64,000 bases of DNA from the NCBI GenBank assembly GCA_958295885.1, contig OY282380.1, forward strand, positions 1,488,001-1,552,000. Direction: 5' to 3'. The notes beneath the pieces were generated by a model, which saw only the letters and a list, made by a program, of their open reading frames with translations, was not told where the DNA came from and made no database searches. Of the stretch, positions 13,735-25,486 are shown in pieces. Source of the DNA: Arenicellales bacterium. Lineage in GTDB: Bacteria; Pseudomonadota; Gammaproteobacteria; Arenicellales; JAJDZL01. The translations under genes and the position numbers were made by a program. Within the stretch, counting starts at the first letter, position 1. Each line of letters starts with the position of its first letter.

Positions 13735-14046
13735 TTAGGCAGACTTCCACGCAAATGGGATGAGATTGATTTCATCCTCTCGGCTTCGGGCTTGAGCAAT
13801 GTCGTAGCTGTTCTGCATCCTCATCAGTGTTTCCATAGACACCCCGAACACTTTTTCAATTCTGAGAGCTAACTCAGACGAAAGCGGGATTTGTTCGTTA
13901 AGCAAAGTAGTAAGCTCGGAATGCGATACTTCTAACAACCTAGCCGCTTTAGCTGTTGACAAACTAAGAGCTTCAACAATTTCAAACTTCACGAATTCTC
14001 CGGGATGCGGCGGATTTTTTAAGCGAATTCCACGCGATTCACTCAT
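13735..14046 (-). CDS. higA: HigA-family antitoxin (locus 1)
   Basis: A 103-residue HTH antitoxin of the HigA/VapI type. It begins with the HPGEF block (NPPHPGEFVKFEIVEAL), followed by an XRE-like helix-turn-helix (STAKAARLLEVSHSELTTLLN) and the ETLMRMQNSYDIAQAR tail. It neutralises HigB by direct binding and represses its own operon. It lies 12 bp downstream of higB in the toxin-first order typical of hig loci. Both partners are intact here. Confidence 0.9.
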   Translation of the reverse strand: MSESRGIRLKNPPHPGEFVKFEIVEALSLSTAKAARLLEVSHSELTTLLNEQIPLSSELALRIEKVFGVSMETLMRMQNSYDIAQARSREDEINLIPFAWKSA

Positions 14047-14058
14047 GGGAACTTCCTC

Positions 14059-14349
14059 CTAGTGGTAATTTTCATAATTCAGATCAATGATTTCATTCTC
14101 AGTGAAGTCAATTCGAAACGTAATTCGCCAATTTCTCGTAATCGATAAACTCCATGTTCCTCGGCGACTACCTGTGAGTTGATGTACTCTCCACATAGGG
14201 ATCGTGTACAACTCATATTCCGATTCCATATCTTGGAGAAATGCCAATACTCGCAATAGCTTTCTCGCTGATGCAGGCTGAATGCCTGCGGTACTACCAG
14301 TTTCAATAAATCGGCCAAGCCCTTTATGCACTACATTCCTTATTTTCAT
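14059..14349 (-). CDS. higB: HigB-family mRNA interferase toxin (locus 1)
   Basis: A 96-residue RelE/HigB-type ribosome-dependent mRNase. Family features are HKGLGRFIETGSTAGIQPASARKLLRVL, with the helical first half, and SRRGTWSLSITRNWRITFRI followed by NYENYH at the C-terminus. These basic and aromatic residues form the active surface in the family. It starts at ATG 14349 and is upstream of higA. The pair stabilises the locus or responds to stress; nothing in the sequence shows damage. Confidence 0.9.
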   Translation of the reverse strand: MKIRNVVHKGLGRFIETGSTAGIQPASARKLLRVLAFLQDMESEYELYTIPMWRVHQLTGSRRGTWSLSITRNWRITFRIDFTENEIIDLNYENYH

Positions 14350-15727: not shown

Positions 15728-16102
15728 ATGGTTGCTGTTTCCCGTTTACGCAATATCAAGAATGCTTCCGAGATCAAAAAAAACGACGAAATTTCCCCGC
15801 GTTGGGTTACAAAATTAAACAAAGTCTATGGAGATGAGAGTTGGCGGGATCTTTATAGCGAAAGTCCTCAGGTAAATCTTTTCGGAGAAATTGAACTTGG
15901 GCGTGAACCTGGTGTAGACGGATTGATCCGAATTTACAAAAATAAGCTCAAATCGTTGCTTGGGGATAGGTTTCTTGATCAACGTCGACTTTTGAAGAAT
16001 TCTAATAATTCTACGCTGTTTGCATTCATGTTTTTTGTTGGTAATTCCGCGGGTATCACATCTGCGAAAAGGATTGCAAAGCACATCTTAGATCATTTAT
16101 GA
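15728..16102 (+). pseudogene. tcmP: Three-Cys-motif partner protein TcmP, 5'-truncated
   Basis: The 124-residue frame matches only the C-terminal part of TcmP: VTKLNKVYGDESWRDLYSE, VNLFGEIE, then DQRRLLKNSNNSTLFAFMF and [13 protein letters not shown], which parallel the family's LRNSRNxPLY and ALKIAQHIL segments. Full-length TcmP is about 270-400 residues, and a stop (TGA 15722-15724) lies just before the ATG, so the N-terminal two thirds are missing. Its stop overlaps the ATG of the Gp37-Gp68 gene (ATGA), the usual pairing. The pair's function is not established. Confidence 0.65.
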
Positions 16103-17037
16103 CCATGCCAACGAAATCCTTGATTGAGTGGACTGAGGTCACGTGGAACCCTGTTACTGGATGCACAAAAGTTAGTCATGGCTGTAAGAATTGTTAGGCT
16201 GAACGAATGTCTCGCAGACTACACGCAATGGGAGTCAATAAATATAGAAACGCTTTCTCTCTTACCATTCACGAATCTGTTTTAGAAGATCCAACAAAAT
16301 GGTCTAAGCCTCGATTGGTGTTTGTTCACTCAATGTCCGACTTATTTGATGAATCAGTCCCTGAGTGGTTCATTGAAGCGGTTTTTGACGTTATGAACCA
16401 AGCATCCCAACACACTTTTCAAGTACTAACCAGTGTCTGCCAGAAAACGTTTAATACAATGATAATAATCATTAATCATGTCATTCTAACAAGTGAAGAT
16501 TTTGCTGGTTTGTGGCATTTGGCAGCGAAATTCGCCTTTGAACCCGTTAATCCGCCAAAATCGAAATTTCTTCGTTTGAAAATATCGCATGATTGTTATT
16601 TATTATCAATGTGATGTATAGTTTTTGGATGAATACTAACTAAACGGCCTGCTCGTGTTATTAAAATGAATAGGCAAATTTACTGGTCGCCGAATATCTG
16701 GTTTGGTGTAAGTATTGACTCCGAGAGATGGATCGAACGATTGGGTCTTCTCAAGGAATTAAGTGCCCAAACGAAGTTTTTATCACTCGAACCTTTGTTG
16801 GGACCATTGCCCAGTTTACAGCTTCAAGGTATAGACTGTGTAATAGTAGGAGGGGAATCTGGACCAAAAGCTAGACCTATAAAAGTCGAATGGGTTAGAG
16901 AAATCCGGGACAACTGCGTAAACAACAAAGTGCCAATTTTCTTCAAACAGTGGGGCGGAGTTTTCAAGAAGCGAACGGGACGTTTACTGGATAACCGAAC
17001 ATGGGATGAGATGCCGGTGCGCTTACAAAATAGCTAA
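16099..17037 (+). pseudogene. Phage Gp37/Gp68-family three-Cys-motif (radical-SAM-like) protein, broken
   Basis: The N-terminus reads [20 protein letters not shown], then C-x-x-C: Cys22, Cys29 and Cys32 are the three-Cys signature. The next codon, normally Tyr in CYAE, is TAG (16195-16197). The frame then stays open ([15 protein letters not shown]) to FQVLT, where a 210-bp insertion brings in a stop at 16614. After it the same frame resumes with TKRPARVIKMN and runs through PNIWFGVSID, FLSLEPLLGP, CVIVGGESGPKARP and FFKQWGG to the end. So one nonsense change and one in-frame insertion inactivate an otherwise complete gene. It is coupled to tcmP upstream. Confidence 0.8.
16431..16633. mobile_element. 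MITE-like insertion with 7-bp target duplication
   Basis: The insertion lies within the Gp37/Gp68 gene between two copies of TACTAAC (16424-16430 and 16634-16640). With one repeat copy it adds exactly 210 bp, a multiple of three. The ends are imperfect inverted repeats of about 45 bp: the left end contains ACAATGATAATAATCATT and the right end, reverse-complemented, ACATTGATAATAAATAAC, both then reaching AATCATG. It encodes no protein, so it looks like a non-autonomous element mobilised in trans. Confidence 0.7.
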
Positions 17038-17179: not shown

Positions 17180-17602
17180 GCGGTTTCGATAAATGGTTAA
17201 TCTCAGTTAGGCACTTCATTAATGGGGATTTCGAGTACTAAACTGGGGAATGACATTGCACTACAGTAAAAGAAACGCTTGGTTTGTTGAGCCTCGAATG
17301 CTAAGACAATTCAATTATCCGGTTGGTCTTACTCGAATGCTGGAAATACACTTGAATAGGGGCTCACATAAAGTGCTTATGTCTGCATTCCGTAGCTAAA
17401 ACGTTACAATCACTGGTTAAATCCGCGTCAATCTCAGCCAATAGCACCATCATCAGGCATTGTCCAACGCTGAAACCGGATAAACGAATGGTCCTGCATC
17501 GAATGCGAAATGTATGGATAAATATTATCAGTAATTTTTCCTAATTCAAGTCGAAGTTGACGAAACCTATCTAGGTGGAAAAGAGAAGCATAAGCACAAA
17601 TT
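17180..17602 (+). pseudogene. IS1595 (ISXO2-like) transposase remnant, N-terminal/central part
   Basis: Short blocks in different frames match an IS1595-family transposase in order: FDKWLISVRHFING, then MGISSTKLGNDIAL with SKRNAWFV, then the DDE motif QVEVDETYLGGKEKHKHK at about 17548-17601. The stretch between is riddled with stops. The C-terminal half is not found here; a matching C-terminal remnant lies at 35135-35284 in the opposite orientation. Confidence 0.6.
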
Positions 17603-17613
17603 CATATAATGAA

Positions 17614-17820
17614 ATGCAGGTCGAGGGCAATTACATTACCCAGCTAAGGGATCTGCAGATTCGTTTCACAATCAACGGACTGTCAGAATCAACTTTCCCT
17701 AAGATTACTTACAACGCCCAGATTACTTGCGACCTAACCAAGACTCGTGACACACTCATACCCAAGATCCTCTCCCGGCAACTTCGTTTGCAGATCGAAG
17801 AAATGGAAGCAGTGATGTGA
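17614..17820 (+). CDS. Small ORF coupled to the Hachiman-like nuclease gene
   Basis: A 68-residue frame from ATG 17614 (open further upstream to a GTG at 17575, inside the IS1595 remnant). Its TGA overlaps the GTG start of the nuclease gene as GTGA, so it appears to be translationally coupled to the operon. I recognise no family. Predicted features are an amphipathic N-terminal half and a charged helix near the end (SRQLRLQIEEMEAVM). It may be a complete small subunit or the 3' remainder of a larger gene cut by the IS1595 element; these cannot be told apart here. Confidence 0.5.
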   Translation: MQVEGNYITQLRDLQIRFTINGLSESTFPKITYNAQITCDLTKTRDTLIPKILSRQLRLQIEEMEAVM

Positions 17821-18617
17821 TTAGATCGTGCACTACAACTGAGTTTGAGGACAACCACGTCTGCGTATCTTGGCGTGGCCAGTCATTTTCGGATAGTAAC
17901 GACTTTTCAGAATTTCTCCAGACACAAGTTCGTTCACGTCTTGATGATAGAGAAGGAGTGGAAGATTTGCATAGTCATCTTCACGGCTTGGATCTTACCG
18001 GTATGGGAAGGGAAAGTCTAGAAGCTGTACTAGCAGCGGAAGTTCTTGAAGAGCGGGATTGGGCTGGTGGCGAAGCATTTGCTGAAGCTTATCTGATGGA
18101 GACGAGGGGCATAATATTCCCGTGGAACATGGAACGCGACAAACGAAATCCTTTTGGTTCGTTACCAGGGCCTGACCTTGTTGGTTTTGTGGCGGAAAAT
18201 TCTGGCTATCGTTTCGCTCTATGAGAAGTAAAGACATCCTCCGAAGAGACTTACCCGCCTCAAATCATGTCGGTTCGGTCAGGACACATGGGCCACCAAA
18301 TTGACCGGCTAGCCCACGACATCACGACAATTTACCAACTTATCAAATGGCTGCACCCACGAGTCAGATGTGGACCGCATCAGGCAGCATTTGATCGTTC
18401 ATGCACTAACTATTTCAATTCAGTGAAAAAATCAGTAGCGATTTTCGGCGTCCTGATTCGTGATACGCAACCGAATGAAGGCGATCTTCTTGCCCGGGGA
18501 AGAACATTGAGAGGCGAACTTGCCTCCACGACTCAATGCGATCTTGTCGCACTCTACCTTCCCTGCTGGCAGTTGGATCAGCTTGTTCCCTCAAATCGGC
18601 AAGGAGGTGACTCATGA
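17817..18617 (+). pseudogene. HamA-like PD-(D/E)XK nuclease (Hachiman-like), one in-frame TGA
   Basis: One continuous frame of 267 codons including the internal TGA. Residues 90-135 hold a PD-(D/E)XK-type site: PGPDLVGF, then YRFAL, then EVKTSSEE. Between FAL and EVKTS the codon is TGA (18222-18224), where Gly (GGA) is expected in a typical GEVKTS strand; beyond it the frame stays open to the stop. The nuclease-plus-SF2-helicase layout resembles Hachiman HamA (DUF1837) with HamB. The start is GTG, overlapping the upstream ORF, and the stop overlaps the helicase ATG. Assignment to HamA is by architecture and motif, not by search. Confidence 0.6.
18601..18609 (+). promoter_or_regulatory. Strong Shine-Dalgarno for the helicase, inside the nuclease gene
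   Basis: AAGGAGGTG lies 4 bp before ATG 18614, within the last codons of the nuclease gene. With the ATGA overlap it fixes the helicase start and would allow helicase translation even though the nuclease frame is interrupted. Confidence 0.75.
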
Positions 18618-21600
18618 ATCACTGGTTGCTAGATGTGATTGAAGATCGCCGCCGCGCCGCGTTGAAAGCCTCCAACAAGGCAGAAGTCTACCGTGAACTG
18701 CTTTCGACCGACGCGGAGCTGGATCTCGACTTGATCCGCGACATGGCCGATGCACTGGAGTTGGCGTCCCTTGACCTTATTCTTGAGCGATTTGAAGAAA
18801 ATGAAGACAAAGAAAAACTGCTTCGCTTTGCAGCATGTGATGCCTTTCAGCTCTTCAAGACGCTATTTACTTCGGAGAACCCTCCTCTAGAACAAGGTAA
18901 GACGCTATTGCGTGCATCATGCCTTGCCGTTCTAGGTGATCGCGGTACCGACGCTACACGCTGGCTTCGGGCATTGGAAAACACAGGGGATTGGCCTGAT
19001 CTTCCGATAAACTCAGAAAATTGGAGTGAACGTACTTGGGCGACACTCATCGACGTGTGGCTGCGTTTGATCCGCAAGCGAGGATGGATTGATCGAGACC
19101 TCGTACTCGAACGGGTTGAGGATCTGCGCAACAGTCAGAAAAAGTTCGAAAAAGACTATCTCAATGGGGTGTCTGCTCAGTCGGCTAAGGCTGCTGCTTT
19201 GGAACTCATTGGTCTTTACCATCTGGCAAAGGCGGCGGACATTCTAGCTCATTTCATTACCGACGGAGTTGTAGAAGGCAATCATCAGGTTCAACAACTC
19301 CTCGACACCCATTTTGACCGAGCTCATGCCGCATGCGAATCGGCCCGCCTAATTGAGCTGGAGCCCACGACGCGATTGCTTGCAGCCGCTTCTACTCAAC
19401 TCGTCAAAAATTCGATCTGGACGGTGACACGGGCGGTAAACTCAAGGGTGACACAGTTTGTTCAGACGCTGGTTTCCCGCGGCCGAGGGGAAAAAGCGAT
19501 ATTCGACTTCCTGCCGCCCCAACGCCGAACCCTTGCAGAGAGGGGACTCCTCGGATCAAGCCGTCGCGCCGTAGTCGTGAGTCTTCCTACATCCAGCGGC
19601 AAGACTTTGATTGCTCAGTTCCGCATTCTTCAGGCACTCAACCAGTTTGACGATAAGGACAACGAAGGATGGGTGGCTTACTTGACTCCTACCCAGGAGC
19701 TAGTGAATCAAGTAGCTCGACAATTACGTAGGGATTTCCAGCCATTGGGCGTAGTCGTTGAACGGGTTAGTCCTGCTCTCGAGGTAGATGGGGTTGAAAG
19801 GGGGCTGTTGACGGAGACCGAACTAGACGCAAAGGTTAGAGTCTTGGCGACTACCCCGGAAAAACTAGACCTGATGCTCCGCCAAGGCTGGGAAAAAAAG
19901 ATCGGCAGACCGCTGACGCTGGTAATTGTGGATGAAGCGCACAACCTTCAAAGTCCGCGTAGAGGACTCACTCTGGAACTTCTCCTGGCAACCATCAACC
20001 AAGAGTGCGAATACGCGCAGTTCCTGCTCCTCACACTCTTCATCGCAAACGCTCGTGAGGTTGCTCGGTGGTTGGGTGGACAAAACTCGAAAGACATTAG
20101 CCTTCCCTTAGACTGGCAACCGAATGCTCGTGCGATTGGGGTGGTCCAGACCGTACGAGAAGAACCCTTGAATAAACGCAGTTACGATTACACACTGGAG
20201 TTTGATACCGTTCACACGACGCGAAATACAATCGATCTAGACGAACACGTGCGGTTTCCAAAGGCTGTTGAGATTGCAAAGACGTTTTCCCAAGTCAATA
20301 AACAGGGCTCAATCGCAGCGGTTACAGCTCAACATTTAAAGTCTCGGGGACCAGTAATTCTAATGCACGCAAGACCGGACTGGGTTTGGTCATTGGCAGA
20401 TAAACTCAAGATTGCCAGGAACAAAAGGGCTTCGGTTCATGCAGATATTGAGCTTGTCCAAAAGTATTTGGCACTCGAAATGGGGGATACTTTCCCACTT
20501 ATCGAGCTTCTCTCTTATGGCATTGGTGTTCACCATTCAGGGCTTCCCGAAGAAGTAAGGATTCTGATTGAGTGGTTATTTGAGGCTTCACATCTAGATT
20601 TTTTGGTTGCAACAACTACTGTTGCTCAAGTGGTTAACTTTCCCGTGAGCGGTGTCGTTATGGCCTCGCATCAGTATTTTTCGTCCAACAGCCCACCCGA
20701 AGAAATGCCGCCCGAGGATTTCTAGAACATCGCAGGACGAGCAGGCAGAATTTCTCAAGATCAACTTGGAATTATTGCGTTAGCCGCGGACAACGCAAAT
20801 AAGGCCAGAGCGTTACGAACCTATGTCAACAAGAACACGGGAGACCTTAATTCAGCCCTCATTCAAATGGCAATCGATGCTGCTGCAGATTTGGATGACC
20901 TCGGAAAGATTGTATACCGCAAGCCAGAATGGTCCTGTTTTCTGCAGTATCTTGCCCATACGTATTCGCAAATGAGAGAACCCGCTACATTTTTTCAGCA
21001 GATTGAGCAGGTTTTAAGAGGAACGCTTGGGTTCGAAAAACTGAGACTGCGCAACAGCCAAATCGCACGTCAACTTCTGGTCGGCATCGAAAACTATGCT
21101 CGGTTTCTTCAGGAACCTGGACGACCAATTAAGCTGGTCGATAGTACTGGCTTCTCGGTCAATAGCATCATCACGATTTTGTCAAATAAAGGATCTATTG
21201 GTCAAAATTCCTGGAATTCCAAGACGCTTTTCGAGAACAAAGACCAGACCCTTCGCGACATGATGGGGGTATTGTTACTCGTTCCTGAACTCCGGGACAA
21301 CTTGGAGGCGGCAACCGGAGGCAAAGGTAAAGATGGCAATAAACTCGCCGGCATAGTCAAAGACTGGGTCGGTGGTAAATCGTTACCTGAAATTGCAGCC
21401 ATTCACTTCCAACACGATGGTGACACTCCTGTAACAGCGATTACCCGATGCGGTCAGAATCTCTTTGGGAAATTGACTCAAACTGCCTCGTGGGGACTCG
21501 GAGCACTGCTTTCTATTACTGCTTCGGGTCTTCCAGATGAAGAATTCAAGCGACTTAGTAATCTTCCATCCCGCGTCTTTTATGGAGTCAACTCCGATGA

Positions 21601-21808
21601 GGCAATTACGATGAGGCTGCTGGGCGTTCCAAGAACGGTCGCTGTGCCTTTGGCATGCCATTTTGGCGAGACTATTAACCAGCCACTGCCGAAGCTCAGA
21701 GAAAACTTGATCAATCTAGCGGAGCCAGATTGGAAAACTGCCGTCGGTGAAAATGGTTCAGTTTATCGCCGAGTTTGGCGAATATTTGAAGGTGTCGAGG
21801 ACGCATGA
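18614..21808 (+). pseudogene. HamB-like SF2 helicase (Hachiman-like), one in-frame TAG
   Basis: A single frame of 1064 codons apart from one TAG at 20723-20725. Helicase motifs are in order: Walker A LPTSSGKT near residue 325-332, TPTQELVNQ (Ia), TTPEKLDLML, Walker B/DEAH VIVDEAHN near 438, VILMHARPD (IV), the Ski2-like GIGVHHSGLP near 640, and motif VI NIAGRAGRI. The TAG falls immediately before NIAGRAGR, where EDFWNIAGRAGR would have Trp, so TGG to TAG is the simplest explanation. The 703-residue product would lack motif VI and should be inactive. It is coupled to the nuclease by ATGA. Confidence 0.8.
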
Positions 21809-21977: not shown

Positions 21978-23688
21978 TCAGAGGATATTGAATTTCACGT
22001 CTAAAATATCAAATGCCTTTTGCTGATAATCGGTCGGTTGATTAAACAGCCAGAATTCTGAATCTTTCCTCTTCAGTGGACGAATCCGATTCCTGCACAG
22101 CGTTGCAAGGTCCTGCATCAAAGTCTGAAAACTGTGTACCGGCTCGCCGGCCGCATTGAGCTTAGTCTTTTGTTTTCGATACGCAGACGGGGATTTTCTC
22201 GCCGGCTTGACATCCAGTCGCTTTACACACTCATCATCAAACAGTAGTGGCGCGAGTTTCTTACGCATCTCAAACTCGACATAGTACGCCAGCATGCAAA
22301 GCAGAAGATGCGAACGCACCCGGCGTTCGCGGCGATGATAAATCGGACGCACCTTCAAGTCGACGGTCTTCATTGACCGAAACGCCCGCTCAACTTTTGA
22401 CAGACGCTTGTAGCTGTCAAGCACCTCTTCGGTGCTCAGTTTATCCGCGCTGACACTGGTGCGAATCACGTAAAACCCATCAAGCGCAGCCTCGCGGTCA
22501 ATGCTTTGCTGATTGCGCTGATAACTGAATCGTTCAGGTCCCACCTCAATGTGAAAATGTTTGCGCATCTTGTGTTTGTCCAACGCCCGCGTTGCCCGAC
22601 GAACAATCGCACTTTGCTTTTTCAACCGATACTTGTCCCTTTTGGTTGCCGAAACAATTTCATCCAGCAAGCTCTCGGTCGCTTGCAGCAACTGTGCACG
22701 GGTGGATTTGCGCTTGTCTGCCAATAACGGATTGCGACACACCACCAGCCGCTCACCAGGATATAACCGCTCACAGCGGATCTCCCCCAGGCTACGCTCA
22801 TCAAACAAACTTGGCTGCAATGCGCCATCGTCTACAAGTTGTTGAATGGATACTGATTTCAGTGTCGTAATCCAATCATACTGCGCCGGTTTCAGATCCT
22901 CCTCAATGCGTGCCGCAGTCAACATGCCCCGATCCCCGACCATCACAATCTGATTGAGTGCGAAACGCGCCTTGAGCTTGTTCACCTGTGACATGACGGT
23001 TTGTGGATCAGAGGTATTGCCGGCAAACGCCTCAATGGCAACAGGCCGTCCATCGGCATCGCATAAAAGACCAAACTCAATTTGCTTGACCCCTCTTTTT
23101 TTATCCCGTGAATAGCCGAATTGTGCCAACTCACACTTCTCGCCGCACACCCAGGTCGAGGTCAGATCGTACATCACCACTGAGCCGTCCTGGAGATGTC
23201 TGCGTGCGAGTTTGTTTTCAATCTTGCTGGCATTCAAGCAGCCAGTCCATCGCTGCATAAAGATCATTCCAGTCAGCCTTGGTGACACCGAGACATTCAC
23301 CTAGGGTGTCGGATGCGATGTCTTCGCAGAAACCTCGGCTGGTTGCAAGTTTGGAACGAGGCGCGATGATTCTTGCGACAATCATCGCCAGGCACAGTTG
23401 GCGCTGGCGTGAGGGCTTTGAGTCGATCAAGCGATCAAGGCCGAGATTTTTGAGCGTACCGAGCACGGCAGCGACATGGCCGTGTGGGATCGAGCGGGTG
23501 ATGTCGAACAGTTCGGGTACAGGGTGGGAGGAATTTTTAAGTTCTGCGCGGATCATTGCGATCAGAAACGGTGGCAGTTTTGACAGGTTGGCAAGTGTTC
23601 TTTTCTTGCATTTTCCGTCTTGCCAGTAGGACTCTCGCACGAGAATGGCGGGCGGGGATTTTCTGTTTTTGATGGTTTCTACATACAT
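21978..23688 (-). pseudogene. IS1634-family (IS4-like) transposase, frameshifted
   Basis: The N-terminal 156 codons read from 23688 (MYVETIKNRKSPPAILVRES). After AAMDWLLECQ the frame shifts near 23228-23240 and continues with SKIENKLARRHLQDGSVVMYDLTST, IVMVGDRGMLT (catalytic Asp), and VERAFRSMKTVDLKVRPIYH (Glu region) to 21978. Together they make a full IS1634-type DDE transposase of about 570 residues broken by one indel. I could not fix the element ends by eye. It separates the helicase gene from a DUF2971 fragment that it probably truncated. Confidence 0.85.
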
Positions 23689-23823: not shown

Positions 23824-24084
23824 TTGGGGTTAACCACAAAATTTTCACATTGGAGTTATGAAGAAGAATATCGATTATTTGTACGGTTGGTTACAAGGCA
23901 TAATGATTTATATTTTATGCACTACGGTGATGAGATGATACTGAAACAAGTAATAGTTGGATTAAATTCTTCCGTTCTCCGTTCCGAGATAGAACAATCA
24001 ATAGGTAACAAATGCGAGGTTGAAATTTTTAAAGTTCGCAAAGATTATTGTGAATTCAAAATGGTGCGCGATGAAAACTTTTGA
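23824..24084 (+). pseudogene. DUF2971-like C-terminal fragment
   Basis: An 86-residue frame with the motif SHWSYEEEYRLFV followed by LKQVIVGLNS, matching the C-terminal half of DUF2971 proteins, which are frequent in defence islands and of unknown function. Full-length members are about 250-300 residues. The frame begins with a TTG without ribosome site, and the IS1634-type transposase lies just upstream, so the 5' part was probably removed by that insertion. Confidence 0.5.
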
Positions 24085-24235: not shown

Positions 24236-25486
24236 ATGGATTTATTTAATCCTTTTAGTTCAACGAAACACGAAAATCGTTTAACTTGGTCATTTCTGAC
24301 CATGCTTAAGTACGACATGTATCTGCAGAAGTACATCTACGATACGGTGACCACACAGCTCCCTCAGTTACCAGCAATTTACAACACTTGGGAACCTGCA
24401 CATATTTCAACGCAGACAAAAATGATCGGTGAATCAACTCAACAACTTGTTTCTGTGCTTCTTACAGATGAGAAAATTCACGATAAGATAGAAATCAAGT
24501 GGGAAGAGCGCAATGCAATATACGACGGAGTCATTGAGTATTCCAACGGGTTAACTTTGATCGTTGAAAACAAACTAGATCATGAAAAAGTATGGAAGGA
24601 ACAGCTATCCCCGAGTCGTAATGCCTTATCTAGCACCCGTAGGGAAAATGTTTTGTTACACCAATTCGTAAAATGTTTGGTTTGGCCAGATGTCTTGGAA
24701 GCTGTTCTTAAATATTCAAATTCAGAAATTGCATCATTTGGAAACCGCAATATTGCTCGTGATTTTCTATCATTTACTGAAAAACACCATCCGAATTTGA
24801 CACCTTATCGAACCTATATTCTTTGTGGAAATAGAGAAAGTGCACTTATAAGACGAACAGTGCGTTTGGTCGACACATTAGCTTCTAAATCAGGGTTGAG
24901 CGTACACGACCAATCCAAGAATTGCTTAGAACATCTCGATTGTATTGCCAGGTTAATTGAATTTAAAATAATCATCAACTCCAATAAGAACACTTGGAAA
25001 CTTAGAATCAATTTGTGGCCAGCAAGCACCTCTTCTCAGGCAGACAGATTCCGCGAAGTATTGAATCGAGCTGAATTTATAAATTTGGATGAAAGTGAGT
25101 GGATCGTTACGCCAAATCTTAATTTTTCCTTTCAAGGAACAAAATTGTACTGGGCTACAACCGACTGGAACTCCCAGAGTTATTTGGAATACTTCTTTGG
25201 TCAGGAAAGACGTTATGGACGAAAGTATTCTAGAGAAATGGAAGAATTACTGGAACAGTGGAGTGAAAATGGTTTAATTCGGTGCGAGGATACATTGGAA
25301 ATCAAACGCATTTTTCAGAATCGAAAGTTCTTTGACATAAACCCGGAGTTTTCCGTATATCGAGAACTTGATAATGAAACCGTGATTAAGATGGAGAGTC
25401 AAGATCATCTTGAAGCACATATCATTGAGTCACTTTCAGTGCCACTAGCAACGTGGGGAGAAGATCTACGAGTGTTGGGAAAATAG
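24236..25486 (+). CDS. PD-(D/E)XK nuclease-like protein of unknown system
   Basis: An intact 416-residue protein. The N-terminus MDLFNPFSSTKHENRLTW carries a Glu at 13. A likely nuclease core follows: D97 in YDGVIEY and E111-x-K113 in LTLIVENKLD, the D-(D/E)xK spacing. The remaining 300 residues are not recognised; residues 190-245 (YRTYILCGNRESALIRR) may form a separate domain. It lacks an obvious partner gene, standing between a DUF2971 fragment and an IS end. Restriction or abortive-infection nuclease is a fair guess from motif and context. Confidence 0.6.
   Translation: MDLFNPFSSTKHENRLTWSFLTMLKYDMYLQKYIYDTVTTQLPQLPAIYNTWEPAHISTQTKMIGESTQQLVSVLLTDEKIHDKIEIKWEERNAIYDGVIEYSNGLTLIVENKLDHEKVWKEQLSPSRNALSSTRRENVLLHQFVKCLVWPDVLEAVLKYSNSEIASFGNRNIARDFLSFTEKHHPNLTPYRTYILCGNRESALIRRTVRLVDTLASKSGLSVHDQSKNCLEHLDCIARLIEFKIIINSNKNTWKLRINLWPASTSSQADRFREVLNRAEFINLDESEWIVTPNLNFSFQGTKLYWATTDWNSQSYLEYFFGQERRYGRKYSREMEELLEQWSENGLIRCEDTLEIKRIFQNRKFFDINPEFSVYRELDNETVIKMESQDHLEAHIIESLSVPLATWGEDLRVLGK

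Follow-up and report, generated by a model that had tools for sequence, protein, structure and literature searches.

A recently inactivated PDC-M23 nuclease-helicase pair with Hachiman-like features in a ruined bacterial defence island

The two genes described here lie within a 64,000-nucleotide stretch of Arenicellales bacterium DNA (contig OY282380.1; the window, meaning this whole stretch) and are an ordinary, recently inactivated pseudogene pair of a known candidate defence system, situated in a ruined defence island. The pair is very probably a decayed copy of PDC-M23, a Hachiman-like nuclease-helicase pair, that is likely to have been acquired inside a type I restriction-modification (RM) operon. 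As such, it is an immune system in decay and not a new device, and it illustrates the death of a genome-guarding nuclease-helicase system.

Both genes are located on the forward strand. The PDC-M23A pseudogene, for a nuclease of the HamA fold, starts with GTG and occupies positions 17817 to 18617, and the PDC-M23B pseudogene, for a HamB-like Ski2-type helicase with a DEAD domain, occupies positions 18614 to 21808; the first-pass annotation had correctly described the two co-oriented genes as overlapping by 4 bp. Translation confirmed its further claim of one nonsense codon in each large gene: the only internal stop of the nuclease frame is TGA at 18222-18224, and that of the helicase frame is TAG at 20723-20725. 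When sequences of the same length and composition were shuffled 300 times, the mean number of stops was 65 and the minimum was 40. The presence of two stops against a mean of 65 implies that these are genuine genes with single interruptions. Moreover, the genes had been called otherwise full length, and when the stops were read through, both families were indeed matched from end to end, M23A covering positions 3-251 of the 263 in the PADLOC profile PDLC04527 (E 1.4e-88) and M23B positions 4-1059 of the 1060 in PDLC04531 (E 0). A strong AGGAGGTG ribosome site is still present upstream of the M23B pseudogene.

The stops are placed at key motifs, as had been stated. TGA lies one codon 5' of the catalytic Glu of the E-x-K motif (EVKTS), at a position occupied by Gly in 11 of 11 M23A relatives, and TAG lies immediately 5' of helicase motif VI (NIAGRAGR), at a position occupied by Trp in 12 of 12 M23B relatives. 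E133 and K135 are invariant in the M23A relatives; EVK is encoded in the window gene as well, but 3' of TGA. The definition of PDC-M23 asks for two translatable genes, and in the window pair translation of one is interrupted by TGA and that of the other by TAG.

The frames remain open past both stops and their composition is coding-like, as would be expected if programmed readthrough or recoding gave a rare full-length protein. However, UGA and UAG are common terminators in this genome (in a 400-kb sample, long ORFs ended with TGA in 73 cases, TAG in 46 and TAA in 40), and its 47 tRNA matches yielded no suppressor, Sec or Pyl tRNA. ARAGORN assigned ordinary anticodons to 45 of these 47, and neither a CTA nor a TCA anticodon was seen when the loops of the two weak matches were read by eye; the best match to tRNA-Sec is in fact a tRNA-Ser(CGA). 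Stop-codon reassignment, selenocysteine, pyrrolysine and suppressor tRNAs were thus rejected on the basis of the tRNA set and the normal stop usage. In addition, the relatives carry Gly and Trp at the stop positions and not Sec, Pyl or Gln, no Rfam element is found nearby, and the helicase has also lost the Gly of motif V and the Pro of motif III. Readthrough, which the annotation had considered the less likely alternative, is therefore close to excluded, and we regard it as extremely improbable. ATG codons downstream of the stops, at 18267 and 20867, could in principle allow translation to restart and produce two-part functional enzymes. These first starts are situated beyond EVKTS and NIAGRAGR, which sit between stop and start and would be absent from both fragments, so the restart products would be devoid of the catalytic E-x-K or of motif VI; functional split proteins can practically be dismissed. 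That the stops represent sequencing or assembly errors is very improbable, since the same operon carries two substitutions together with several further motif changes, stop-interrupted coding frames were rare in a crude scan of 400 kb of the same genome, and the decayed neighbours of the pair provide independent evidence.

The window pair belongs to PDC-M23, a distinct PADLOC candidate family that resembles Hachiman in its fold and in the order of its genes; PMC12988326 cites the guilt-by-embedding survey of Payne et al. 2024 as the origin of the PDC families. The order M23A-then-M23B is common to 10 relatives with open frames, and the window proteins share with the family their end-to-end profile matches, the two-gene overlap and, as judged from the relatives, the embedding in type I RM operons, whereas the window copy differs in being interrupted in both genes and in having no host operon any more. 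The annotation had named the pair a Hachiman-like nuclease-helicase, and this was substantiated for the helicase by matches to the HamB1 models (E 2.3e-64) and to the solved HamB structure 8vx9_B (E 5e-22). For the nuclease the similarity resides in the fold. Neither window M23A nor an intact relative matched Pfam HamA/DUF1837 (PF08878), unlike the genome's own canonical HamA, and hhalign gave only a weak link, with a probability of 40%, between the M23A profile and three HamA sequences. When the AlphaFold model (mean pLDDT 84) for L103, an intact M23A relative, was aligned with VIA-align, HamA (8vx9_A) was recovered with Z 15.6 and rmsd 4.6 over 235 aligned residues, and the best non-HamA structure had Z 6.5; Foldseek alone yielded no significant PDB match for this model, and HamA was found only by VIA-align. 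The proposed comparison with DUF1837/HamA and HamB thus held for HamB and for the HamA fold and failed for the DUF1837 family itself. With Hachiman (HamA/HamB, PDB 8VX9) the pair has in common a HamA fold with the E-x-K strand, a HamB-like helicase and the nuclease-helicase order, but it differs in the missing Pfam HamA hit of M23A, the weak profile link and the separate PADLOC family, and the window copy is dead. These results place PDC-M23 structurally with Hachiman.

The description of the two frames as open except for one stop each was right about the number of stops and understated the damage, because the helicase is also substituted at residues that are invariant in 12 relatives. Seven such changes (A358T, F408V, V412A, V438I, P475L, I670V and G673V) were found in addition to the stop, and all seven are within or adjoin helicase motifs. 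They include the replacement of the invariant Pro of motif III by Leu (residue 475, 20036-20038) and of the invariant Gly of motif V by Val (residue 673, 20630-20632), both on the forward strand. In motif Ia, residue 361 (19694-19696, forward strand) is Gln at a near-invariant site where relatives carry Arg or Lys (R361Q). The motif V Gly and the motif Ia Arg are conserved in canonical HamB as well. The total of invariant-site deviations in the window helicase (8) is within the range of 0-12 observed in intact relatives, and excess decay by this measure was therefore rejected, which limits the decay reading. This implies that the lineage was mostly under constraint, and that the constraint was lifted only recently. 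At the same time, the deviations cluster in the motifs instead of being evenly spread, a pattern that simple neutral decay would not be expected to give: 7 were found at 46 motif sites and none at 132 other sites (Fisher p 1e-4 against relatives, in a post hoc comparison for which the motif windows were chosen after the alignment had been inspected). About 3.9% of random substitutions would create a stop here, and the two stops thereby imply approximately 52 neutral substitutions, or 1.3% of sites (interval 0.16-4.7%); this estimate is rough and presupposes that both stops postdate the lifting of constraint. The inactivation can thus be called recent in outline, as had been suggested, within this wide interval; the stops are not its sole lesions.

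The remains of a type I system directly precede the pair. The C-terminal end of an hsdS specificity subunit gene (17575-17820, forward strand; PADLOC Specificity_I, E 1e-7) overlaps the start of M23A by 4 bp, and the range first given for the operon, starting at 17614, also takes in the end of this truncated gene. An HsdS with a similar C-terminal sequence lies directly 5' of M23A in one related locus (L124), and in four other genomes (G235, G357, L004 and L006) M23A-M23B is located downstream of a type I hsdS and upstream of hsdR, with an N6 methylase also upstream in three of the four. These operons show PDC-M23 as cargo of type I restriction systems, carried in the interval from hsdS to hsdR. 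That M23AB stands in for HsdR as restriction module was considered and dropped, given that HsdR was found downstream in these same four operons. In a similar way, DarTG2 sits between hsdS and hsdR (PMC12255303) and TgvAB inside a type I RM cluster of V. cholerae (PMC11411939); intact M23AB relatives are likewise embedded, whereas the window retains only the hsdS stump. A tblastn search of the window and the 400-kb sample for hsdM or hsdR remnants detected none, apart from a weak 40-residue HsdR hit in L136. The stump adjoining M23A, together with the intact embedded operons elsewhere, indicates that the window copy was most likely once carried in a type I operon, now lost. Among the loci in which M23AB is intact between hsdS and hsdR (L124/L150, L125/L151, L004 and L006), the other cargo includes Abi_C, Schlafen AlbA_2, TPR and YhcG proteins.

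The surroundings of the pair are broken too. On the forward strand, only the last third of PDC-M41A remains (15728-16102; PDLC04635 positions 188-295 of 298), and PDC-M41B (DUF5131, identified with PADLOC and Pfam; 16114-17022) is disrupted both by a TAG and by about 190 bp of inserted sequence; an intact M41B is present elsewhere in the genome. This insert, at 16447-16632, includes the stop and splits the DUF5131 gene; terminal repeats of at least 14 bp were not found. An IS transposase gene (DDE_Tnp_1, PF01609) occupies 21978-23300 on the reverse strand, directly 3' of M23B, a C-terminal fragment of PDC-S31 lies at 23824-24084 on the forward strand (PDLC04990 positions 183-254 of 259), and IS66 copies are also situated around the M23 pair.

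We propose that the pair was probably acquired within a type I operon of the form hsdM-hsdS-M23A-M23B-...-hsdR, that hsdM, hsdR and most of hsdS were then lost through a deletion or the action of transposons, in an order of events that we infer, and that the orphaned pair would thereafter have gathered nonsense and missense changes. By analogy with Hachiman, the helicase of the intact pair would sense damaged or replicating DNA and free the PD-(D/E)xK nuclease; the window pair presumably gives no functional product now. It is sufficient for the lifting of constraint that the host operon, or any benefit, had gone, and a cost of self-damage is possible. The annotation had suggested inactivation selected by autoimmunity; the lesions are accounted for equally well if the pair decayed once the type I RM operon around it had been lost. 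Under such selection the pair would have harmed its own host, either after the loss of hsdM and hsdS or when triggered by transposition or DNA damage, and nonsense mutants would have been favoured. Hachiman is activated by the DNA damage that it senses and is mildly toxic (PMC12278908), which would be in line with this possibility, and the nuclease has been lost from some other M23 copies. Thus, in G073:C128 (L095/L148) an 11-bp deletion lies shortly 3' of the M23A active site while the helicase is still open, and in L005 all that is left of M23A, next to an intact M23B, is the C-terminal 23 residues. However, a single lesion would be enough for escape, with subsequent ones being neutral, unrelated defence genes nearby are equally broken, and M23AB pairs whose frames are open also occur on their own (e.g., L103 and L096), in places where hsdM and hsdS were not found beside them. 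We therefore consider selected inactivation rather unlikely.

A HamA1/HamB1 pair of the canonical type, with frames that are long and open, is present in the same genome (C1:4403784-4407702, corresponding to L092:3785-7703, G000), and its state bears on this question. In its HamA, Lys replaces the catalytic Glu, a residue shared by all nine relatives and the HamA of ECOR31 (E138), while its HamB lacks three of the GRAGR residues of motif VI and has a premature TGA that precedes the end of the homologous frame by 74 codons. Hence both Hachiman-type systems found in the genome are damaged in both genes, and the second is disabled at the same two motifs as the first, which favours selected inactivation, as do the 27 IS66 transposase matches of this genome compared with 0-3 in five congeners. 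The parallel loss is compatible both with general decay, the genome being rich in IS elements, and with selection against Hachiman, between which the data do not discriminate. It could be speculated further, with little confidence, that separate lesions in the same motifs served to rid both systems of nuclease and helicase function, the cause being that DNA ends made by an expanding load of IS elements would keep triggering the sensor, making IS proliferation and Hachiman incompatible. Should parallel loss in IS-rich genomes turn out to be general, what self-sensing immunity costs could be measured by setting IS load against Hachiman integrity.

Both M23 frames are open in 10 of the 13 other usable loci. 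The G292 helicase has a frameshift beside an A6 run, possibly an error; programmed frameshifting was rejected there, as the break needs +1/-2 and hence no -1 slippery site is involved, leaving an indel or an error. M23A is absent from the five congeners, no relatives of either helicase (M23B or the second HamB) were found in viral contigs, and the plasmid search returned only distant M23B relatives. In L005 (4678-5972) the M23A remnant and M23B adjoin a 389-aa ORF without a Pfam hit, a C5 methylase and a HATPase gene. Beside the window island, a 416-aa open frame without a Pfam or PADLOC match is located at 24236-25486, and at the island edge (13738-14349) a HigB-like toxin and an HTH antitoxin form an apparently intact pair.
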